Assembly (NCBI GenBank): GCA_020445745.1
Contig: JAGRGB010000029.1
Location: 62,001-126,000, forward strand
DNA length: 64,000 nt
Direction of reading: 5' to 3'
Origin: Rhodocyclaceae bacterium
GTDB taxonomy: Bacteria; Pseudomonadota; Gammaproteobacteria; Burkholderiales; Rhodocyclaceae
Shown here: positions 15,759-62,605 of the stretch, in pieces
Layout: each line of letters starts with the position of its first letter
Position numbering within the stretch: the first letter of the stretch is position 1
Made by a program: the position numbers and the translations under genes
The notes under the pieces: model-generated
The model's input: the letters and a program-made list of their open reading frames with translations, nothing else
The model's database searches: none
What the model was told of the DNA's origin: nothing

Positions 15759-17243
15759 ATGAACAAGCGTTTCGACAGCATCCTCGACACCATCGGCCGC
15801 ACGCCGGTGGTGCGCATCAACAATCTCGCGCCCGGCCACGTCAACCTCTACGTCAAGGTCGAGTCCTTCAACCCGATGGGCTCGGTCAAGGACCGGCTCG
15901 CCCTCGGCGTGATCGAGGATGCCGAGCGGCGCGGCGAGCTCAGACCGGGCCAGACCGTCGTCGAGGCCACCAGTGGCAACACCGGCATCGGCCTGGCGAT
16001 GGTGTGCGCCCAGAAGGGTTATCCGCTGGTGGTCACGATGGCCGAGAACTTCAGCGTCGAGCGGCGCCGCCTGATGCGCTTCCTGGGGGCGAAGGTGGTG
16101 CTGACACCGGCCTCGCTGAAGGGCTCGGGGATGGTCGCCAAGGCGGAGGAGCTGGCCCGCGAGCACGGCTGGTGGCAGTCGCGCCAGTTCGAGAATCCGG
16201 CCAATGCCGAGATGCACGAACGCACCACCGCGGTCGAGATCCTCGAGGCCTTCGCCGATATCGGGCTCGATTACTGGGTGACCGGCTTCGGCACCGGCGG
16301 CACCTTGAACGGCGTCTCGCGGGCACTGCGCCGGCAGAGTCCGGATACCCGGATCGTCGTCTGCGAGCCGGACAACTCGGCGATCCTCGCCAGCGGCATT
16401 CCCCAGGACCGCAACGACGACGGCAGCCACAGCCAGAGCCATCCGGTGTTCCGGCCGCACCTGATGCAGGGCTGGTCGCCCGACTTCATCCCGAAGCTGG
16501 CCGAGGAGGTCACCGGCGGCGGGCGCATCGACGACTTCCTGGCGATCAATGGCGCGCGCGCCCTCGAGTGCGCCCGCGACCTGGCCCGCAAGGAGGGCAT
16601 CTTCGTCGGCATCTCGTCCGGTGCCACCTTCGCCGGCGCGCTGGCGATCGCCGAGCAGGCGCCCGACGGCGCGAACATCCTGTGTATGCTGCCGGACACC
16701 GGCGAGCGCTACCTGTCGACGCCGCTGTTCGAGGACGTTCCGGCGGAGATGACCGAGGAGGAGATGGCGATCTCGCGCTCGACCGCGAACTATCGCTTCG
16801 ACGTCACGGCGCCGGCCACGGCGCCGGCCGCGGCAGCGGCCGATCCCGAGCCGGAGGCGGTGGCCGAGGTCGAGGAACTGACCACCGACGGCAGCCAGCC
16901 GGTGGTGATGTTCGCGCTCGAATGGTGCGAATTCTGCTGGTCGGTGCGCAAGGTGCTGGCCAGGTACGGCATCGAGTACCGTTCGGTGGATCTCGACTCG
17001 GTCGCCTACCAGCCCGACAACCGTGGCGGCAAGGTGCGCGAGGCGCTGCGTGCGAAGACCGGCTGGAACACCTTCCCCCAGATCTTCATCGGCGGCGAGT
17101 TCGTCGGTGGTTGCACCGACCTGTTCGACGCGTTGAAGGACGGCAGCCTCGGCGAGCGCCTGGACCGCCACGACATCCACTTCGACCGCTCGGTCAAGGA
17201 GGATCCCTACAGCTACCTGCCGAAATGGCTGCATCCGCGGTGA
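15759..17243 (+). CDS. Cysteine synthase-like enzyme fused to a C-terminal glutaredoxin
   Basis: 494 residues. Residues 1 to about 340 are a fold-type II PLP enzyme of the O-acetylserine sulfhydrylase/cystathionine beta-synthase group: NPMGSVKDRLALGVIEDAE has the Schiff-base Lys, EATSGNTGIGLAMVCAQKG the asparagine loop, GFGTGGTLNGVSRALR the phosphate-binding glycines. An Ala/Pro/Glu linker (about 345-375) leads to a glutaredoxin domain with the redox motif EWCEFCWS (about 386-393), then TGWNTFPQIFIGGEFVGGCT. Fusion to glutaredoxin would allow reduction of, or sulfur transfer from, a persulfide or mixed disulfide at the PLP active site. AACAGGAGAGCAGTG precedes the ATG at 15759. It is probably co-transcribed with the decarboxylase. 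Confidence 0.93.
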   Translation: MNKRFDSILDTIGRTPVVRINNLAPGHVNLYVKVESFNPMGSVKDRLALGVIEDAERRGELRPGQTVVEATSGNTGIGLAMVCAQKGYPLVVTMAENFSVERRRLMRFLGAKVVLTPASLKGSGMVAKAEELAREHGWWQSRQFENPANAEMHERTTAVEILEAFADIGLDYWVTGFGTGGTLNGVSRALRRQSPDTRIVVCEPDNSAILASGIPQDRNDDGSHSQSHPVFRPHLMQGWSPDFIPKLAEEVTGGGRIDDFLAINGARALECARDLARKEGIFVGISSGATFAGALAIAEQAPDGANILCMLPDTGERYLSTPLFEDVPAEMTEEEMAISRSTANYRFDVTAPATAPAAAAADPEPEAVAEVEELTTDGSQPVVMFALEWCEFCWSVRKVLARYGIEYRSVDLDSVAYQPDNRGGKVREALRAKTGWNTFPQIFIGGEFVGGCTDLFDALKDGSLGERLDRHDIHFDRSVKEDPYSYLPKWLHPR

Positions 17244-17322: not shown

Positions 17323-18036
17323 TCAATCGACCCGGGTGGCCGGCGGCGTCGGCGTTGAGGTCGAGGCCGTGTCGGACGCCGCTGCCGTCTTGGCCGGCTT
17401 CGGCACGTCCACCAGCATCGTGGTGTCGACGGTGAGGCCGTCCTCGGCCGCTTTCAGCGCTAGGTTGGCGTCGAAGTAGTTCTTGTCGCGGATCATGCCG
17501 GCAGCCTCGTCGACATGGGCCCGGGTCTCCTTCAAGGGCATCAGCAGCTGGGTATAGCCGATGTCCTCCTCGGCGAGCCTGAACTGCTCGATCGCCTCGT
17601 CGGTCTTGCCCGCCTTCAGGTGCTGTCCTCCCTTGTCGAGATGGGCGGCCTTCTCCGGCGTGCCGACATAGTCCTGGCCGACGACCAGCTGGCCATCGAT
17701 CGGCACCAGGTTGGCGTCCTGGCTCTTGCCGATCCCCATCGCGTGCTCGTCGCTGGCCGCCTTCACCAGCGCCTGTCGAGCCTGTCGGACCAGTTCGCGG
17801 GCGCGATCGGTGTCGCCGTTGAACAGGGCGAGCCGGGCCGAGCGCACATTGCGCATCGCCTCGAAGCCGTCGTGGGAGACCTGCAGGTTCATCTCCTTCT
17901 GCTTCTCGGCCTGGCGTGCCTTGACGGGTGCCGAGTCGGGCACCCCCGCAGCTGCGCCGAGCGGGGCGAGGCCGGCGCTGACCAGGGCGGTGGCGGCAAA
18001 CGCGCCGATGACGGTGTTGCGAAGAACGTCTTTCAT
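17323..18036 (-). CDS. yfdX: YfdX-family periplasmic stress protein
   Basis: 237 residues with a signal peptide (MKDVLRNTVIGAFAATALVS to about residue 30, cleavage near GAAAG). The YfdX domain follows: helical sequence with SARLALFNGDTDRARELVRQ, LVPIDGQLVVGQDYVGTPEK and DIGYTQLLMPLKETRAHVDE. The tail after about residue 210 is Thr/Ala/Pro-rich. In enterobacteria YfdX is induced by the EvgA acid/stress regulator and is linked to acid and antibiotic tolerance, probably as a chaperone-like periplasmic protein. A -24/-12 element about 105 bases upstream and the adjacent sigma54 two-component system point to sigma54 control. Confidence 0.9.
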   Translation of the reverse strand: MKDVLRNTVIGAFAATALVSAGLAPLGAAAGVPDSAPVKARQAEKQKEMNLQVSHDGFEAMRNVRSARLALFNGDTDRARELVRQARQALVKAASDEHAMGIGKSQDANLVPIDGQLVVGQDYVGTPEKAAHLDKGGQHLKAGKTDEAIEQFRLAEEDIGYTQLLMPLKETRAHVDEAAGMIRDKNYFDANLALKAAEDGLTVDTTMLVDVPKPAKTAAASDTASTSTPTPPATRVD

Positions 18037-18140
18037 GATCTGGCTCCATGCACCCGGGTTCGGATATCAGGGTGGTCGCGACGGGGTGTCGGGTCGCCTG
18101 GCCATCCCGCGGCACTTCGTGCCTGGCCACACCAGCTTTC

Positions 18141-18155
18141 GCATCGCCCGTGCCA
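18141..18155 (-). promoter_or_regulatory. Sigma54 (-24/-12) promoter of yfdX
   Basis: The minus strand reads TGGCACGGGCGATGC. The GG and GC elements are separated by exactly 10 bases, and it matches the consensus TGGCACG-N4-TTGC except ATGC for TTGC. The predicted start site lies about 95 bases before the yfdX ATG. A sigma54-dependent response regulator is encoded next door. Confidence 0.75.
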
Positions 18156-18402
18156 TGTTGGTAAGTGCATGAATAAACGTTAGGAACTTGTCTTTTCGGG
18201 GTGGCAGCGGAGGGGTGATGGCGGAAATAACCACCATCGCCGCCAGATCCACCGGCGCCATGCCGAACGACGATCGGAAACGGTCGCGCGATCGGCTGCG
18301 ATGCAGCCGGGGCGGGCCGCCCATGTTCGCGGGGCATCGCCGCCTGCGGGGCCGCGGCGGCGCCGCGGTTGCTCTTGTCGTCTGCCGGCGGTTGGCGGCC
18401 GC

Positions 18403-19797
18403 TCAGCCGCGACTGTCGGCTGCGAGGCCGTATTTCTGGATCCGATAGCGCAATGTCTCGCGCGTCGTGCCGAGGGCGCGCGCAGTGGCCATGACGTTGA
18501 AGTCGTTGCGCTCGAGCGCGCTGCGGATGATGAATCGGTCCATTTCCTCGAGCGCCATCGAGCCGTCCAGCGGCAGGCGGATCCAGTCGCTGGCTTCGTC
18601 CCCGCCGCCGTCGCGGCTGCCGGCGGATCGTGGCAGGCCGAGCCATTCGCCGGCCAGTTCGCGACCCGTCGACAGCAGCACGCTGCGCTCGATCACATTG
18701 CGCAGTTCCCGCACGTTTCCCGGCCAGTCGTAGGCGGCAAGCGCCGCCCACACGGCATCCGGCACGGACGCGACGTGCTTGCCGGCCTGGGTGTTGAATT
18801 CATGGACCATCGTGTCGACCAGGGCGGGGATGTCCTCCTTGCGCTCGCGCAGGCTGGGCAGGCGCACTTCGAACACCGAGATGCGGTGGTAGAGGTCGCT
18901 GCGGAAGCTGCCGTCGGCCGTCGATCGCCGCAGGTCGCGGTTCGAGGCCGCGACCAGCCGCACATCCACCGCGATCTCGTGCTCGCCGCCGACCCGGCGA
19001 AAGCGCTGCTCCTCGAGCGCCTTCAGCAACTTCGCCTGCAGGCCCGGATCGAGTTCGCCGATCTCGTCGAGGAACAGGGTGCCCCCGTCGGCCTGCTCCA
19101 GGAGGCCCCGGTGGCGTCCCTTGGCGCCGGTGAACGCGCCGGGCTCGTGGCCGAACAGCTGGGATTCGAGCAGATCCTTCGGAAACGCCGCGCAATTGAC
19201 GTCCACGAACGGGCCTTCGCTGCGCCCGCCGGAGTAGTGCAGGATCTTGGCGGTGAGGCCCTTGCCGGTGCCGGTCTCGCCGGACAGCAGCACGCTCGAG
19301 ATCGGTACGCCGGTGAGCTGGGCGAGCATCGCGCGGACGCGGCCTGCCGCAGGGCTCGTCCCGACGAAGGCCTGCGGCGAAAATCGTCGGGCCTCGTGCT
19401 CGGTGCTGTCGGCGATGCGCTGGCGGTCGCGTGCTCCGCGGGTTGCGGCGGCGATGGTGAGGTCGAGCTTGTGGGTGTCCAGCGGCTTGGCGAGGAAATC
19501 CAGCGCCCCCAGCTCGGCGGCACGCTCGATGTCGCGACGGGTCCCGTAGCCGGACAGAAAGATCCATTCGCCGTGTCCGCCGGCCGCCCGCACCTCTTCG
19601 AGGAAGTCGAGTCCGTTGCCGTCGGGAAGGTTCATGTCGGACAGCACGATGGTCGGCGACAGTCCGAGTTCGACGATCAGGTGGCGGGCATCGGCGATGG
19701 TTTCGGAAACCGTCACCTGCCAGCCGCCCCGCTCGAAGCGCCGTTTCAGTTCCGCGCCGAGCAGTCGCTCGTCCTCGATGATGCTCATCGTTCGCAT
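18403..19797 (-). CDS. Sigma54-dependent response regulator (NtrC family)
   Basis: 464 residues from the ATG at 19797; another ATG lies three codons later. The receiver domain carries the phospho-acceptor Asp in VLSDMNLPDGNG (about 52) and the conserved Lys in FLAKPLDTHK. The AAA+ domain has Walker A GETGTGKG, the sigma54-contacting GAFTGA loop (about 219-224), Walker B GGTLFLDEIGEL and the WPGNVRELRNVIERSVLLS sensor region. A Fis-type helix-turn-helix ends the protein (NVMATARALGTTRETLRYRI). It follows the kinase gene with overlapping ends. Candidate targets are yfdX and the DUF1269 gene, which have good -24/-12 elements and flank the pair. Confidence 0.95.
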   Translation of the reverse strand: MRTMSIIEDERLLGAELKRRFERGGWQVTVSETIADARHLIVELGLSPTIVLSDMNLPDGNGLDFLEEVRAAGGHGEWIFLSGYGTRRDIERAAELGALDFLAKPLDTHKLDLTIAAATRGARDRQRIADSTEHEARRFSPQAFVGTSPAAGRVRAMLAQLTGVPISSVLLSGETGTGKGLTAKILHYSGGRSEGPFVDVNCAAFPKDLLESQLFGHEPGAFTGAKGRHRGLLEQADGGTLFLDEIGELDPGLQAKLLKALEEQRFRRVGGEHEIAVDVRLVAASNRDLRRSTADGSFRSDLYHRISVFEVRLPSLRERKEDIPALVDTMVHEFNTQAGKHVASVPDAVWAALAAYDWPGNVRELRNVIERSVLLSTGRELAGEWLGLPRSAGSRDGGGDEASDWIRLPLDGSMALEEMDRFIIRSALERNDFNVMATARALGTTRETLRYRIQKYGLAADSRG

Positions 19798-19802
19798 GGT
19801 GC

Positions 19803-21275
19803 TCAGTCTCCGCACGGCAGCGTGACGACGGTCCTTGCGCCGCCCTCCACGCTGCTTCCGAGGTGGATCTCGCCGCCGGCGGATCGCACCAGGCGCTGGA
19901 TGATCGACATCCCGAGCCCGGTGCCGTCGGCCTTGCTCGTCTGGAACGGTCTGATGCCGCGCGTCAGCAGCGCTTCCGGATAGCCGGGGCCGTTGTCGGC
20001 AACCGTCAGGGTCAGCAGGCCGCCGTCGCGCGTCATCTCGATGGTGATCGTCCCGGGGGCGTCGCCGATCGCTTCGGAGGCGTTGCGCAGCAGGTTGATC
20101 AGCACCTGCCGCAGCGTGTCGCGCGGCAGCAGGCAGGTGGTGTCGTCGACGCTCGCACGAATTTCGATCGGTGCCGGCACCTGGTAGCGGAGCAGGCGAA
20201 CGATGTCGTCCACCAGCCGTCGCGCGGCGACCTGGACCGGCGTTTCCAGATGGGCGCGACCCTGCTCGAGCATGCGGTTGAGCAGTCCGGTGACCCGTTG
20301 CATCTCGTCGGCAATGAGGCGCACGCGGTCCTGTTCCTCGCCGGCCGGCAACTCCTCCTCCATGTTGTGCAGGGCGGCCGAGATGCCCGAGATCGGATTG
20401 CGCAGCTCGTGGGCAAGGCGGGCGGCGAACTCGCCGACCGCGGCCAGGCGCGCGCCGTTCTCCAGTTCGGCCTGCTGGCGGAGCAAGGTCTCCGAGGCCG
20501 CGCGAACCTGGGCTTCGAGCGCGCTGGCGTGCGCTTCCGCCTCCCTGCTGGCGGTCCGCAGGCGCGCGGCCATGTCGTTGTAGCGGGCATAGACGTCGGC
20601 CAGGGGATCGTCCGATGGCACCGGCGCGGCGGCCGAGAAGTCGAGATTGCCGACGTTCTCCAGCAGGCGCGACAGGCGATCGATCGAACGAAAGCCGCGA
20701 CGCTGCATGCCGGCCATCAGCGCGAGGGCGAGCAAGGGAGTCAGCAGCATCGCGCCGAGGGCCACTGCCGTTTCCAGCTTCGCCGCGCGGCGGCTGTCGA
20801 TCACCACCTCGCGCTGCAGGCGATTCTCGTGGTCGAGGGTGCGGCGGATGATCGACAGCGCCGCCAGCAGTCCGGTCTTCGCGTCGACGGTCGAATCGTC
20901 CAGGAAGCTGCGTGCCTGGCGCAGGCTGGGCGGCGTTTCCGGGTGGAGATGGGCGCCACGTCGTTCCAGGGTGTCCAGCGCGGCGCTGATCCGGCGCACC
21001 TGGGCAGGGTCGGGGGCGGTGGCCGATCGGACATGGTGGATCAGCAGTTCCTGGATGTCGATGTTGATCTGCTGCAGGTCCTGGAGGTGCGCCATGTGGC
21101 GCTCCAGTGGATCGAGCCGCTGTGACGATTGCGCGGCTGTGTAGGCCAGAAAGCCCAGCGACAGGACGACGGCCCCGACCGCCAGCAACGCTGCAAAGCG
21201 CGATGGCTGCAGCAGGGCCTTCTGGATCGCGCCTGCGCGCGGCTGGGCTGGCGTGCTCACTGTCTTCTCCACCAT
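19803..21275 (-). CDS. Membrane sensor histidine kinase, partner of the sigma54 regulator
   Basis: 490 residues. A first membrane helix (about 28-49, FAALLAVGAVVLSLGFLAYT) is followed by an all-helical periplasmic sensor (about 50-170). A second helix (LETAVALGAMLLTPLLALAL), a HAMP-like linker and a coiled coil come next. The HisKA box has phospho-acceptor His in RLAHELRNPISGISAALHNM, and the ATPase domain shows N (LINLLRNASEAIGD), G1 (VADNGPGYP) and G2 (GTGLGMSIIQRLV) boxes. It is the first gene of the kinase-regulator operon, with only 5 bases between its stop and the regulator ATG. The sensed signal is unknown. Confidence 0.93.
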   Translation of the reverse strand: MVEKTVSTPAQPRAGAIQKALLQPSRFAALLAVGAVVLSLGFLAYTAAQSSQRLDPLERHMAHLQDLQQINIDIQELLIHHVRSATAPDPAQVRRISAALDTLERRGAHLHPETPPSLRQARSFLDDSTVDAKTGLLAALSIIRRTLDHENRLQREVVIDSRRAAKLETAVALGAMLLTPLLALALMAGMQRRGFRSIDRLSRLLENVGNLDFSAAAPVPSDDPLADVYARYNDMAARLRTASREAEAHASALEAQVRAASETLLRQQAELENGARLAAVGEFAARLAHELRNPISGISAALHNMEEELPAGEEQDRVRLIADEMQRVTGLLNRMLEQGRAHLETPVQVAARRLVDDIVRLLRYQVPAPIEIRASVDDTTCLLPRDTLRQVLINLLRNASEAIGDAPGTITIEMTRDGGLLTLTVADNGPGYPEALLTRGIRPFQTSKADGTGLGMSIIQRLVRSAGGEIHLGSSVEGGARTVVTLPCGD

Positions 21276-21460
21276 TGCCTGCCTCGAACGAGGCCGCCTT
21301 TCACTGCGATTGCAACGCTCGTGCCAGCCGCCGTGGCCCGCGAATCAGCGCAAGTCGGGTCCCCTCGCGAGAAATCCGGCCGCCAGTATGGTGCATTTGA
21401 ACCGCTCGCATGGTGGATATCAACCGTTCACCCCGCCTGTGTTTCTCGACTCCATGAAAA

Positions 21461-21473
21461 GAATCCGGGATTC
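21461..21473. promoter_or_regulatory. Perfect inverted repeat just upstream of the -24 element
   Basis: GAATCC-G-GGATTC lies 14 bases upstream of the -24 box of the DUF1269 gene. Enhancer-binding proteins usually sit further away, so it might serve an accessory factor or be chance. Confidence 0.35.
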
Positions 21474-21487
21474 AGTGGCTTGCGAAC

Positions 21488-21502
21488 TGGCATGTCGATT
21501 GC
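21488..21502 (+). promoter_or_regulatory. Sigma54 (-24/-12) promoter of the DUF1269 gene
   Basis: TGGCATGTCGATTGC matches TGGCACG-N4-TTGC at every core position except one (T for C at the sixth base) and has the required 10 bases between GG and GC. The -12 box ends 53 bases before the ATG at 21556, giving a leader of about 40 bases. Confidence 0.8.
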
Positions 21503-21555
21503 GCCGGCGTTCGGCGGATTTGCACGGAAACCTCTCGGATCGACTGGAGAACACC

Positions 21556-22050
21556 ATGTACGAACTGCTCGTGATCCCCTTCGACAGCGTCGCCGCCGCC
21601 GAAGCCGCCCGCGAACAACTGGTTGCGCTGGCCAGCCGCTATCTCGTCTATGTGGCGGATGCGGTGGTGGCGACCGGTGACGGTCGGCATCACATCCGTC
21701 TCCAGCATCTCGTGGACCAGTGGCCACCGGATCCCGCCGGCACCCCGGTGTGGGGCACGCTGGCGGGAATGTTTCAACGGCATTCGCTGGTAGCGGCGTC
21801 GGCGCGTTCGAGTGCCGGCGGCCTCGACAACTTCGGCCTCGACGACGCGTTCATGGAAGGGATGGCGAGCCTGCTCGATCGACGCGCCGCGTGCTTGTGC
21901 GTGCTGGCGAGAGCCAGCAATGCCGACCACGTCGTCGAGCGGGTCGGGGGCGGCGCCGACGAAGTGCTGCGGGCGCGGCTGCGCCGGTCGCCGGCGACCT
22001 GCGCGGAATCATCCAGCGGCAGCGACGTCGGGCCGAAAGCCCCGGCCTGA
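21556..22050 (+). CDS. DUF1269-family protein
   Basis: 164 residues from the ATG at 21556 after GGAGAACACC. It starts MYELLVIPFDSVAAAEAARE, a short alpha/beta ferredoxin-like segment typical of DUF1269. The central part PVWGTLAGMFQRHSLVAAS is less hydrophobic than the glycine-rich membrane-associated helix of many DUF1269 proteins. FGLDDAFMEGMASLLDRRAA and ACLCVLARASNADHVVERVG follow. Biochemical function is unknown; homologues appear in stress regulons. It has a strong sigma54-type promoter and is divergent from the kinase-regulator operon, which makes it the best candidate direct target together with yfdX. Confidence 0.85.
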   Translation: MYELLVIPFDSVAAAEAAREQLVALASRYLVYVADAVVATGDGRHHIRLQHLVDQWPPDPAGTPVWGTLAGMFQRHSLVAASARSSAGGLDNFGLDDAFMEGMASLLDRRAACLCVLARASNADHVVERVGGGADEVLRARLRRSPATCAESSSGSDVGPKAPA

Positions 22051-22119: not shown

Positions 22120-22719
22120 CTAGATCACGCCGGCATCGGGCGTGTCGACGATGGCGCTGAATTCCTTCAGGATCTCGGGGTCGCGACGGCTTCCCGCCTC
22201 GCTGCCGAGGATCGCCATGATTTCATCGTGGCCGCGACGGCAGTGATAGGGGCGTGCTTCGTCCATCGCGTCGTAGGCGTCGACGATGCTGACGATCCGC
22301 GCACCGAGTGGAATGGCCTCGCCCCGCAGTCGTTCGGGATAGCCCGAGCCGTCGATGTTCTCGTGATGGTAGCGGACGATTTCGGCGACTTCCCGCGCGC
22401 CGTCGAAACCGCCCGCCAACAGCATCTCGGCCCCCATCGTCGGATGGTTGCGGATCGCTTCCCAGTCGTCATGGGTCAGCCGTGTCCGTTTCGCCAGGAT
22501 GTTGTCGGGAATGCCGATCTTGCCGATGTCGTGGACCCCGGCGGCGACATGCAGGATCGCCAGTTCGCGTGGCGTCATGCCGCAGCGTTCGCCGAGCGCC
22601 ACCGCGCGTTGCGCGACCCTCGTCGAGTGCAGTTGCGTCTGGTGGTCACGATATCCCAGGGCCATCGACAGGGCGCTGGTCTGCCGTTGCAGGAAGTGAA
22701 AATACGATTTGTCGAGCAT
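22120..22719 (-). CDS. HD-GYP domain protein, probable c-di-GMP phosphodiesterase
   Basis: 199 residues from the ATG at 22719 (MLDKSYFHFLQRQTSALSMA); a longer reading to 22803 is possible. It is essentially a bare HD-GYP domain with the HD pair in VAAGVHDIGKIGIPDNIL, the metal-binding RNHPTMGAEML and the full signature YHHENIDGSGYPERLRG. All catalytic positions appear intact, so it should hydrolyse c-di-GMP, with partners or signals supplied in trans. A consensus-like promoter lies 90-115 bases upstream. It is divergent from a GAF-GGDEF diguanylate cyclase, forming a make-and-break pair. Confidence 0.9.
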   Translation of the reverse strand: MLDKSYFHFLQRQTSALSMALGYRDHQTQLHSTRVAQRAVALGERCGMTPRELAILHVAAGVHDIGKIGIPDNILAKRTRLTHDDWEAIRNHPTMGAEMLLAGGFDGAREVAEIVRYHHENIDGSGYPERLRGEAIPLGARIVSIVDAYDAMDEARPYHCRRGHDEIMAILGSEAGSRRDPEILKEFSAIVDTPDAGVI

Positions 22720-22804
22720 AGGGCTTGCTGCGGTCGTGGCCGGGCACGCGTCGTGGGGTGCGAATGGTTGTCCCGGGAAGCCTAACGGCGCAAACGAGCA
22801 CAAG

Positions 22805-22835
22805 TTTATAGTCGAGAACTATTGATCCATGTCAA
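22805..22835 (-). promoter_or_regulatory. Probable sigma70 promoter of the HD-GYP gene
   Basis: Minus strand TTGACA (22830-22835) and TATAAA (22805-22810) are near-perfect -35 and -10 boxes, but the spacer is 19 bases, longer than the optimum of 17. A shifted -10 would shorten it. Confidence 0.55.
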
Positions 22836-22983
22836 CAGCTTCGGGGCGCAGATGCGCTGCAATGCAGCATAATCGCAGGTCCTGTCCGGGAGGGATTTCG
22901 CTGCGCCACCCGTAGGGGGAGATGGACGTGTTCCATGTGACCCGGCGACAGGTCCGCCAACGGTCTCATTGGAGTATGCCCAA

Positions 22984-24237
22984 GTGAAATCCGCCAGACA
23001 GGCGATCGCCGAAGATCCCCGCATCGATGCCTATTGCGACGCCGTTCGCGCCATGCGGGAAGGACGCTTCGTATTCGATCTGGACACCGGCGTGGGCGAC
23101 GCGCTCGGCGTGCTCGGCGAAGAACTCAAGGCGCTCGCCGACCATCTCGACTGGCATCTCTCCCACGCCGGCAAGCTACACGAGATCACCGAGAACGTCG
23201 TCGGCGGGCTGCTGCTCGACGATGTCCTGAATCGCATCTTCGAGTCGTTCCAGACGGTCATCCCGTACAACCGCATCGGTTTTGCCCTGTTGTCGGAGGA
23301 CGGCCGGTCGGCACGCGCGTGCTGGGCCCGTGCCGACTTCGAGCACACCCGCCTCGGCAACGGTTTCTCCGCACCGATCGAGGGGAGCAGCCTCGGCGAC
23401 ATCATCCGCACCGGCCACCCGAGGATCATCAACGATCTGGAGCGCTATCTCGACAGCCACCCACTGTCGCATTCGACCCGGCTCATCGTCGCCGAAGGCA
23501 TCCGGTCGAGTCTGACCTGCCCGCTCCTGAGCGATGGCAAGGCGATCGGATTCCTGTTCTTCTCGAGCGTCGAGCGCAACGCCTACGAGGCGGTCCACCA
23601 GGGTATCTTCCTGCGTATCGCGGCACAGTTGTCGGCGCTGATCGAGAAGGGCCGCCTGTGCTCGCAGATCGTCGAGCTGAATCATCGTCTGACCATCGAG
23701 CAGCAGGAACTGCAGCAACTGGCGACGCGCGACGCCCTCACCGGCGTGCTCAACCGCCGTGGCATCCTCGAGCAACTGGACGCCCAGTATGCGCGTGCCT
23801 GCCGCAACAAGGGGCCGATGGCCCTGATCCTGATCGACGTGGACCATTTCAAGGCCGTCAACGACCGCCACGGCCATGCGGTCGGCGATGCGGTGCTGAA
23901 GGAAATGGCCCGACGCATCCATCGCGATCTGCGCCCGTACAACCATCTGGGCCGGCTGGGCGGCGAGGAATTCCTCGTCGTGCTGAGCGACGAGGACAGT
24001 GCCCACGGCACGGCGATCGCCGAAAGGCTTCGCCGGCTGGTGGCGGCCAGCGCGGTTCCGTTCGAAGGCGCGCAGATCCCGGTCACCATCAGCGCCGGTG
24101 TCGTGCAGGCGATCGACCCGGGCGTCGCCGGCAGCATCGAAATGTTGATCGCCGTCGCCGACAAGGCGCTCTACGAGGCCAAGAACGCGGGCAGGAACCG
24201 GGTCTCCCAACGCATCATCATGGCGCCGTCGGACTGA
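22984..24237 (+). CDS. GAF-GGDEF diguanylate cyclase
   Basis: 417 residues from a GTG at 22984 with GGAG nine bases before it; a TTG at 22969 is a weaker alternative. Residues about 65-225 form a GAF domain (LLLDDVLNRIFESFQTVIPY, GIRSSLTCPLLSDGKAIGFL). The GGDEF domain begins at TRDALTGVLNRRGILEQL and carries the active-site motif LGRLGGEEFLVVLS (about residue 325). No RxxD product-inhibition site precedes it (RPYN occupies that place), so feedback inhibition at the classic I-site is not expected. No membrane helix; cytoplasmic. It is divergent from the HD-GYP gene. Confidence 0.93.
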   Translation: MKSARQAIAEDPRIDAYCDAVRAMREGRFVFDLDTGVGDALGVLGEELKALADHLDWHLSHAGKLHEITENVVGGLLLDDVLNRIFESFQTVIPYNRIGFALLSEDGRSARACWARADFEHTRLGNGFSAPIEGSSLGDIIRTGHPRIINDLERYLDSHPLSHSTRLIVAEGIRSSLTCPLLSDGKAIGFLFFSSVERNAYEAVHQGIFLRIAAQLSALIEKGRLCSQIVELNHRLTIEQQELQQLATRDALTGVLNRRGILEQLDAQYARACRNKGPMALILIDVDHFKAVNDRHGHAVGDAVLKEMARRIHRDLRPYNHLGRLGGEEFLVVLSDEDSAHGTAIAERLRRLVAASAVPFEGAQIPVTISAGVVQAIDPGVAGSIEMLIAVADKALYEAKNAGRNRVSQRIIMAPSD

Positions 24238-24952: not shown

Positions 24953-25300
24953 ATGATGAAGCAACGAGAAATTACCGTGGATGCGAACCGCGCCGGCGCC
25001 GTCGCCGCGCTGGCCGGCATGGCCGCCGCGGCGGTCACCGGCGCGGCCTGCATCGGCCCGATGATCGGCATCGCCCTCGGCGTCGGCGGTCTCGGCTGGC
25101 TGGCGCGCTACGCCCCGCTGCAGCTGCCGGCGAGCGTGACGACGGCGGCCCTGCTGGCGCTCGGCTTCCACCTGCTGTACCGGCGCCGCGACCGCGGCGG
25201 TGCAGCGCGGCGGCGGGCCCGTGCGCTGCTGTGGATCGCGGTGGCCTTCGCGGCGGCGATCAACGCCTTCGAATATCTGATCCTGCCCACGCTGGGCTGA
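24953..25300 (+). CDS. MerT-like small membrane protein
   Basis: 115 residues with three or four hydrophobic segments. The first (GAVAALAGMAAAAVTGAACI) runs into GPMIGIALGVGGLGWLARYA; the last is LLWIAVAFAAAINAFEYLIL. Size, topology and its place directly before a MerP-like gene match the MerT mercury-uptake family. MerT normally has a Cys-Cys pair in the first helix; only one Cys (TGAACIGP) is present here. AAGGAGACGAGC precedes tandem ATGs at 24953 and 24956. Metal specificity is uncertain, and no merA or merR is in the window. Confidence 0.72.
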   Translation: MMKQREITVDANRAGAVAALAGMAAAAVTGAACIGPMIGIALGVGGLGWLARYAPLQLPASVTTAALLALGFHLLYRRRDRGGAARRRARALLWIAVAFAAAINAFEYLILPTLG

Positions 25301-25317
25301 ACCTTCGGGAGCGAGCC

Positions 25318-25638
25318 ATGAACACCGCAAGATTCCGGGTCGCAGCGACGATCCTCTCCCTCGCCCAGCTGTTTGCCGCGCCGGGCGCCGCCATCGCCGA
25401 AGCGCCCGCGCCGGCCACGGTGGTCCGCCACACCCTGCATGTCGAGGGCATGGTCGGCGACAGCTGCCCGGTGCTGATCACCGCGGCGCTGAGGCACGTC
25501 GATGGCATCCACCATGTCGAGGCCAGCTACGCCACCCGCTCGGCCACCGTCGAGTACGATCCGGGGAGGATCGGCCTGCAACGGATCCGCCGTACGATCC
25601 TCCGCCAGGCGGGTTTCGAGACGACCGTCGCCCAGTGA
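25318..25638 (+). CDS. MerP-like periplasmic heavy-metal-associated domain protein with altered metal motif
   Basis: 106 residues. The signal peptide ends near AAIAEA (about 28). The ferredoxin-like HMA fold follows: VVRHTLHVEGMVGDSCPVLI, then ALRHVDGIHHVEASYATRSA and VEYDPGRIGLQRIRRTILRQ. In MerP the loop is GMTCxxC; here it is GMVGDSCP, so the first Cys is lost and the second kept. It lies 17 bases after the MerT-like gene with a GGGAGCGAGCC site, so the two form an operon. One remaining Cys suggests changed or lost metal binding. Confidence 0.85.
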   Translation: MNTARFRVAATILSLAQLFAAPGAAIAEAPAPATVVRHTLHVEGMVGDSCPVLITAALRHVDGIHHVEASYATRSATVEYDPGRIGLQRIRRTILRQAGFETTVAQ

Positions 25639-61754: not shown

Positions 61755-62605
61755 GCGAAGGTCTGATCGTCGTAATCGCGATCCTGGTGTTCGTGGTGGT
61801 CACGATTGCCAAGGGCGTGCGGATCATTCCGCAGGGCGAGGAGTGGATCGTCGAGCGGCTGGGCAAGTACCAGGACACCCTCAAGCCCGGCTTGAAGATC
61901 ATCGTGCCGTACATCGACCGGGTCGCCTACCGTCTGATCACCAAGGACATCATCCTCGACGTCCAGGAACAGGAGGTGATCACGCTCGACAACGCAGTGA
62001 TCCTGGCCAATGCGGTGGCCTTCGTGAAGGTCACCGATCCGGTCAAGGCGGTGTATGGCGTGACCGACTACGCCGAGGCGATCCGCAACCTGATCATGAC
62101 CACCCTGCGTTCGATCATCGGCGAGATGGAGCTCGACGAGGCGCTGTCTTCGCGCGACAAGATCAAGGCCCGGCTGCGCGAGAGCATCGCCGACGAGGCC
62201 GTGGATTGGGGCCTCACGGTCAAGTCGGTGGAGATCCAGGACATCAACCCGTCCCAGTCGATGCAGAAGGCGATGGAGATGCAGGCCGCCGCCGAGCGCG
62301 AACGCAAGGCGATGGTGACCAAGGCCGAAGGCGAAAAGCAGTCGGCGATCCTCGAAGCCGATGCCAGGCTCGAGGCGGCCAAGCGCGATGCCAGTGCCCA
62401 GGTGATGCTGGCCGAGGCCTCGGCCGAGGCGATCCGCCGGGTGACCAAGGCGATCGGCAGCGAGACCGCGCCCGTCTATTACATGCTCGGCGAGCGCTAC
62501 GTTCAGGCGCTGCGCGCCCTCGGCGAATCCGACAACTCGAAGCTGGTGGTGCTGCCGGGCGACATCCGCGAGGCCTTGAAAGGCCTCTTCAGCCAGGCGC
62601 GGTGA
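61751..62605 (+). CDS. SPFH/Band 7 (stomatin-like, QmcA type) protein
   Basis: 284 residues. N-terminal membrane hairpin (GLIVVIAILVFVVVTIAKGV), then the SPFH domain (VRIIPQGEEWIVERLGKYQD, VQEQEVITLDNAVILANAVA, AIRNLIMTTLRSIIGEMELD) and an Ala/Glu-rich coiled coil (AAAERERKAMVTKAEGEKQS). Such proteins scaffold membrane domains and influence proteases. Coupled to the NfeD gene by ATGA. Confidence 0.95.
   Translation: MSEGLIVVIAILVFVVVTIAKGVRIIPQGEEWIVERLGKYQDTLKPGLKIIVPYIDRVAYRLITKDIILDVQEQEVITLDNAVILANAVAFVKVTDPVKAVYGVTDYAEAIRNLIMTTLRSIIGEMELDEALSSRDKIKARLRESIADEAVDWGLTVKSVEIQDINPSQSMQKAMEMQAAAERERKAMVTKAEGEKQSAILEADARLEAAKRDASAQVMLAEASAEAIRRVTKAIGSETAPVYYMLGERYVQALRALGESDNSKLVVLPGDIREALKGLFSQAR

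Follow-up and report, generated by a model that had tools for sequence, protein, structure and literature searches.

The Zra system is marked by a divergent layout, by autoregulation and by σ54 control of its promoters, and the effector gene yfdX has been placed in enterobacteria under EvgA, a regulator of the LuxR type. Here we describe a 4.7-kb locus within a 64-kb window (the whole stretch that was analysed, positions 62,001 to 126,000 of contig JAGRGB010000029.1 of a Rhodocyclaceae bacterium), in which genes for a YfdX-family protein, an NtrC-type response regulator, a membrane histidine kinase and a DUF1269-family protein are served by three putative σ54 promoters. Judged from its sequence, this locus is very probably a σ54-dependent two-component system for envelope stress that uses YfdX.

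ZraPSR is treated as an envelope-stress system (PMC10848872). Core yfdX is cited as being under EvgA (PMC8067161), and control of yfdX by RcsB is described (PMC6394985); tables that deal with other sigma factors also list yfdX (PMC5493296). Expression of yfdX1 from the transmissible locus of stress tolerance (tLST) is independent of EvgA and is raised without cpxR at pH 8 (PMC8067161), and the tLST YfdX proteins, which were renamed periplasmic stress chaperones (PscA and PscB), are periplasmic and help to protect against heat and chlorine (PMC8407380). Our literature search, judged mostly by titles and the openings of abstracts, returned no report of σ54 control of yfdX.

A two-component locus that resembles ZraPSR

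Open reading frames (ORFs) and Pfam matches confirm the four genes that an initial annotation, made from the letters alone, had placed in this locus:

17323–18036, minus strand: yfdX, encoding a secreted YfdX-family (periplasmic stress chaperone-type) protein of 237 residues (PF10938)
18403–19815, minus strand: NtrC-type response regulator (Response_reg, Sigma54_activat at 206 bits, HTH_8)
19803–21275, minus strand: membrane histidine kinase (HisKA and HATPase_c, with HAMP under its cut-off)
21556–22050, plus strand: gene for a DUF1269-family protein of 164 residues (PF06897)

The yfdX product belongs to the YfdX family by its PF10938 score of 117 bits (Pfam cut-off 26.6), carries a signal-like N terminus and has 6uxt, 3dza and 6a02 as relatives in the PDB; its score against PRK10316, the NCBIfam model of the enterobacterial YfdX equivalog, is 131.5 bits, under the cut-off of 256. 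The regulator has a receiver with its Asp, an AAA+ domain with the GAFTGA loop at residue 226 and a Fis-type helix-turn-helix, which places it in the σ54-dependent NtrC-type class. In the kinase, two hydrophobic segments in the hydropathy profile flank a presumably periplasmic sensor that is helical in a predicted model, the global confidence of the whole-kinase model being low (predicted template modelling score, pTM, 0.36). These domains, residue 226 and the hydropathy profile bear out the annotation's GAFTGA regulator and membrane kinase. The DUF1269 match is weak yet over its cut-off (32.2 versus 26.9 bits), and the product is probably cytosolic, because a hydropathy scan in 19-residue windows gave none over 1.6 and no hydrophobic segment was seen. 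The annotation's suggestion of a periplasmic stress module consequently stands for YfdX, with its signal-like N terminus, and for the kinase sensor, but not for the DUF1269 protein.

Like ZraPSR, the locus couples a kinase and an NtrC-family regulator to a periplasmic chaperone-type target and has divergent promoters that may use activator sites in common, and the modelled kinase core is closest to the cytoplasmic domain of ZraS (9jfj, E = 1.1e-15, 30% identity). It differs from ZraPSR in that both proteins score under the NCBIfam cut-offs (the regulator 279 bits against 760 for ZraR, the kinase 112.6 against 479 for ZraS), in that the chaperone-type protein is YfdX and not ZraP, and in that the divergent gene encodes a DUF1269 protein. 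The Pfam scan at the locus covered nine proteins, the four of the module and five neighbours, among which there was no ZraP match; the flanking genes are those for YfdX and DUF1269. The best reading of this analogy is that the locus would work like ZraPSR without being its orthologue, as gauged by the NCBIfam cut-offs. AtoSC is set apart by the same measure (345.7 bits against 714 for AtoC and 138.7 against 646 for AtoS). With the EvgA regulon the locus shares an effector family, and YfdX lies near EvgA and an HdeD/DUF308 gene in two of six plasmid regions examined; the linked regulator here, however, is an NtrC-type σ54 activator, no search of the genome for EvgA having been made. Six plasmid YfdX genes, out of 51 records with a match, were examined for the wiring described below, and it was found in none, no box scoring over 0.62; none of the plasmid genes was recognized as a tLST YfdX. 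Effector sets overlap with tLST in YfdX (PscA/PscB), HdeD, DegP and small heat-shock proteins (PMC8407380), whereas the window holds a regulator-linked module: ClpK, DegP and HdeD are absent from the nine proteins scanned, as is the combination of ClpK, small heat-shock proteins, HdeD and DegP in one island that characterizes tLST.

Putative σ54 promoters and phased palindromes

Three boxes of the -24/-12 type were found in the locus:

18141–18155, minus strand: yfdX box TGGCACGGGCGATGC (as TGGCACGGGCGATGCG, 18140–18155), 119 bp from the yfdX ATG
21312–21326, minus strand: kinase–regulator operon box TGGCACGAGCGTTGC (as TGGCACGAGCGTTGCA, 21311–21326), starting 51 bp from the kinase ATG
21488–21502, plus strand: DUF1269-gene box TGGCATGTCGATTGC (as TGGCATGTCGATTGCG, 21488–21503), 68 bp from the ATG

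The yfdX and DUF1269 boxes, both of the form GG-N10-GC, stand where the initial annotation had put them; the kinase box TGGCACGAGCGTTGC, which it had overlooked, fits the σ54 consensus in full, and because this full-consensus box lies upstream of the kinase gene, the kinase–regulator operon looks autoregulated. The pattern TGGCAYGNNNRWTGC, composed after the first two boxes had been seen, matches three times in the window, each time within the locus; shuffled sequences gave a mean of 0.17 matches, and 0 of 100 shuffles reached three. A stricter pattern, TGGCAYGNNNNTTGC, which the yfdX box does not fit, has 14 matches in the 4.88-Mb genome of the organism (reversed control 0), two of them in the locus and 176 bp apart. 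This genome (G000; genomes are given below by G numbers and comparison loci by L numbers) has one rpoN and one YfdX gene.

Upstream of the boxes are palindromes that we consider candidate upstream activator sequences (UAS):

18220–18235, minus strand: UAS16 palindrome GGTGGTTATTTCCGCC, 80 bp upstream of the yfdX box start
21390–21403, no strand: UAS14 site 1 GGTGCATTTGAACC, between the divergent kinase and DUF1269 promoters
21412–21425, no strand: UAS14 site 2 GGTGGATATCAACC, 22 bp from site 1

In all 11 promoters that were aligned, the UAS16 palindrome, GGTGGNWATWNCCRCC, starts 77–80 bp ahead of the start of the box, with an exact fit in ten and two mismatches in one copy from L005. These promoters belong to eight YfdX genes and three genes for short secreted proteins of L006; their sources are three genomes of Rhodocyclaceae (those of the window, L002 and L003) and three of Thalassospira (L004–L006). 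Consistent with this spacing, all six yfdX-type promoters of the later-fetched L293 and L294 have the palindrome at 77–78 bp. Such a GG-N10-GC box with an upstream palindrome at a conserved distance is what characterizes a σ54 promoter with an enhancer site. Between the kinase and DUF1269 boxes, two 14-bp palindromes (GGTKSAWWTSMACC) have a spacing of exactly 22 bp in the window as well as in L002 and L003, and both promoters could therefore share them. UAS14 occurs at three places in G000 (two in the locus; reversed control 0), five in G005 (three in the locus) and three in G002 (two in the locus), and none of its places outside the locus in these genomes is accompanied by a consensus-like box at a suitable distance.

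The boxes are conserved as well. YfdX genes have boxes 119–131 bp from the ATG at L002/L163 (two), L003/L164, L004, L005 (two) and L006, kinase boxes recur at L002 4491 and L003 3511, and the DUF1269 box is kept at L002 4330 and L003 3348. L002 and L003, the orthologous loci of Rhodocyclaceae, thus keep both annotated boxes along with the kinase box and the phased site, and Thalassospira keeps the yfdX box and its site. A site resembling the consensus for integration host factor (IHF) lies 18–19 bp before the box with zero or one mismatch in 14 of 17 promoters; per-promoter shuffles fell below 0.05 in three of the 17, three of the four Rhodocyclaceae promoters have two or three mismatches, and the IHF-like site is suggestive only. 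In the Thalassospira-type genomes of L006 (7645–12379) and L293 (5147–9275), tandem genes whose short secreted products carry repeats of the type VPNNHAGPNGASKEHDIWL lie next to YfdX, and every one of them is preceded by a separate copy of the UAS16 palindrome and the box.

Occurrence of the arrangement together with the regulator

Non-redundant YfdX genes from 174 stretches were scored for a site plus box, that is, a box of at least 0.86 and a site of at least 9 bits, 60–112 bp apart. The arrangement was present at 15 of 17 YfdX genes whose own stretch also holds a regulator orthologue; eight of these 17 had supplied the site matrix, and the other nine gave seven positives. It was also present at two of four YfdX genes whose regulator lies elsewhere in the genome (L157 was assigned to these four by hand, L141 of the same genome holding the regulator), at none of 25 in genomes of the class where the regulator was not found, and at none of 34 in genomes that were not searched for it; seven further genes with a cut-off upstream region were left out. 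The comparison of 15/17 with 0/25 gives a Fisher p of 1.4e-9 with relatedness ignored, and as the 15 positives come from five lineages, the count overstates their independence. No scored YfdX gene, then, showed the arrangement unless a regulator orthologue is known from its own stretch or genome. In 113 loci outside the matrix, 33 of 316 boxes had a site of at least 10 bits 60–112 bp upstream, whereas displaced windows gave 5 and 1.

Widespread intragenic σ54 binding in a map from E. coli (PMC4591121) would be in keeping with fortuitous or non-productive boxes, another promoter driving yfdX; given the phased palindromes, their occurrence with the regulator and the displaced-window control, we regard this as very improbable. 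The comparative test of box conservation that the initial annotation had proposed was passed, which supports its suggestion that yfdX is under σ54 control by the neighbouring regulator.

Several observations weigh against this reading. The σ54 consensus and the box weights were taken as given, not derived in this analysis. UAS16 by itself is unspecific in the GC-rich genome of the organism (26 strand matches, reversed control 1) and, being so frequent, was rejected as a means of defining a regulon. In L013 (Methylobacter), regulator and YfdX occur without a properly placed site, and the long YfdX of L142, with its box inside the longest ORF, scored negative, a separate view showing a box and a weaker site of 9.9 bits. 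The category "not found" can miss regulators, as with G268, missed at E ≤ 1e-120 although its L141 holds one. Within the class, regulator and YfdX go together only moderately (6/17 versus 30/352, p = 0.003; p = 0.009 when restricted to YfdX over the cut-off), and many regulator homologues adjoin no YfdX: of the 80 loci fetched first, together with those added later, only 14 carry one. Finally, a promoter profile run over 398 genomes of the phylum found no new member: strong hits (57.8–68 bits) were confined to G000 and G655, both of which had supplied training promoters, G655 appearing to be the L005 genome. Matches at E ≤ 0.01 were present in 138 genomes, and those listed beyond the three strong ones reached at most 32.3 bits and were treated as background.

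In favour of the link with the regulator, the same-genus genome G003, in which no regulator was found at E ≤ 1e-100, has a YfdX gene without a consensus-like box, the six GG-N10-GC words upstream being unscored and none starting TGGCA. In this genome (L314, 263–3286) YfdX adjoins a patatin-like gene, near a glycine-rich DUF1269-like gene, as identified by eye.

A wider candidate regulon

Of 19 further stretches around regulator orthologues, 17 had at least one site plus box at a lenient threshold (one of the 17, L295, being the L005 genome), and L303 and L311 had none at all. The targets suggest that the regulon looks wider than the four genes the initial annotation had proposed. L002, from a same-genus genome, adds a second yfdX and, between its two yfdX genes, a patatin/DUF3734 gene with GGTGGATATCCACC and a box 89 bp on. 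Elsewhere the arrangement precedes genes for DegP/HtrA (L142, L297), an HdeD-like DUF308 protein (L007) and an HSP20 protein (L307), as well as a DUF202 gene that is followed by a YfdX-like gene in L142. The YfdX-like genes of L142 (4119–4772, 25.6 bits) and L302 (23.7 bits) are under the Pfam cut-off. SulP transporters stand behind it at L298 (by Pfam) and at several Methylococcales loci (by eye), and cytochrome bd subunit I genes at L301 (by Pfam) and at L306 and L309 (by eye), in genomes that hold the regulator. On one ORF of L300 (5480–6268, minus strand), encapsulated-ferritin and encapsulin domains occur together behind a palindrome and box. Some of these targets may be chance matches.

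The SulP-type transporters, the cytochrome bd genes and the HdeD-like gene fit a regulator that answers respiratory, pH or inorganic-carbon state and not misfolding, YfdX being one output of a pH, CO2 or redox programme. That DegP, HSP20 and YfdX genes have the same arrangement points to protein quality control instead, and targets may have been rewired between clades; we consider the respiratory or pH programme possible but rather unlikely. Still less likely is a system that mainly controls membrane-lipid or storage metabolism, with YfdX and DUF1269 as accessories. Such a role would accommodate the L002 patatin/DUF3734 gene, which is followed by a 3-hydroxybutyrate dehydrogenase-like enzyme (by eye), the patatin-like neighbour of YfdX in G003, where the regulator was not found, and the best NCBIfam match of the regulator, AtoC, under its cut-off. 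At the window locus, however, the scan of nine proteins turned up no patatin, and elsewhere the arrangement precedes YfdX, protease and heat-shock genes, with no patatin seen among the genes checked.

Descent of the regulator

Of 14 aligned regulators, 11 share the recognition helix TTRETLRYR unchanged, and the other three differ from it at one residue; a helix so nearly fixed would explain a single DNA code. A tree built from 47 selected regulators unites the window with two same-genus genomes and five Thalassospira-type rows in one fully supported clade, every member of which has YfdX and whose sister is L007 with its HdeD-like gene. The YfdX label needs six changes on this tree, at least three of them forced by well-supported branches, with L302 counted as YfdX despite its score under the Pfam cut-off. 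Three of six genomes of the genus have the regulator, as against 0 of 55 other relatives (E ≤ 1e-100). Transfer between an alphaproteobacterium and the group of the window is a fair inference from these data.

Neighbouring genes

Ahead of the module, at 15759–17243 (plus strand), a cysteine synthase-type pyridoxal phosphate enzyme is fused with a glutaredoxin domain (PF00291 and PF00462). Adjoining the module on its other side (22120–24237) are an HD_5-domain gene (minus strand) and a GAF-GGDEF diguanylate cyclase gene (plus strand), look-alikes of which were recognized by eye in L002, and at 24953–25638 there is a row of small MerT-like (under cut-off) and heavy-metal-associated domain proteins.

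Discussion

On the genes, the boxes, the phased palindromes and their occurrence together with the regulator we base the following model of a σ54-dependent envelope-stress system. The membrane kinase would sense a periplasmic or membrane condition through its helical sensor domain and would phosphorylate the NtrC-type regulator, which in turn would bind GGT-rich palindromes ~80–100 bp upstream of the -24/-12 promoters, where its GAFTGA ATPase would open σ54–RNA polymerase. Three units would be driven in this way: the kinase–regulator operon itself, giving positive feedback; the divergent DUF1269 gene, from the shared sites; and yfdX, whose exported product would protect periplasmic proteins.

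Beyond the single locus, the balance of the comparisons tips slightly towards a previously unnamed σ54 envelope-stress response across Alpha-, Beta- and Gammaproteobacteria (in the NCBI sense). A single family of regulators, almost invariant in the recognition helix, would act through a GGT-palindrome to command a periplasmic quality-control set of YfdX, DegP, HdeD-like and HSP20 proteins plus, in some lineages, respiratory and transport genes. If this is true, it would represent an alternative, perhaps older, wiring of effectors that enterobacteria put under EvgA or carry on tLST. In the literature surveyed, control of yfdX is otherwise reported to be by EvgA or RcsB, and σ54 enhancer-driven control of yfdX with an exact and testable DNA code would extend the envelope-stress responses by a further branch. 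The motif could then be used to search environmental bacteria for the signal and the members of the regulon and to trace how the control of these effectors has changed over time.

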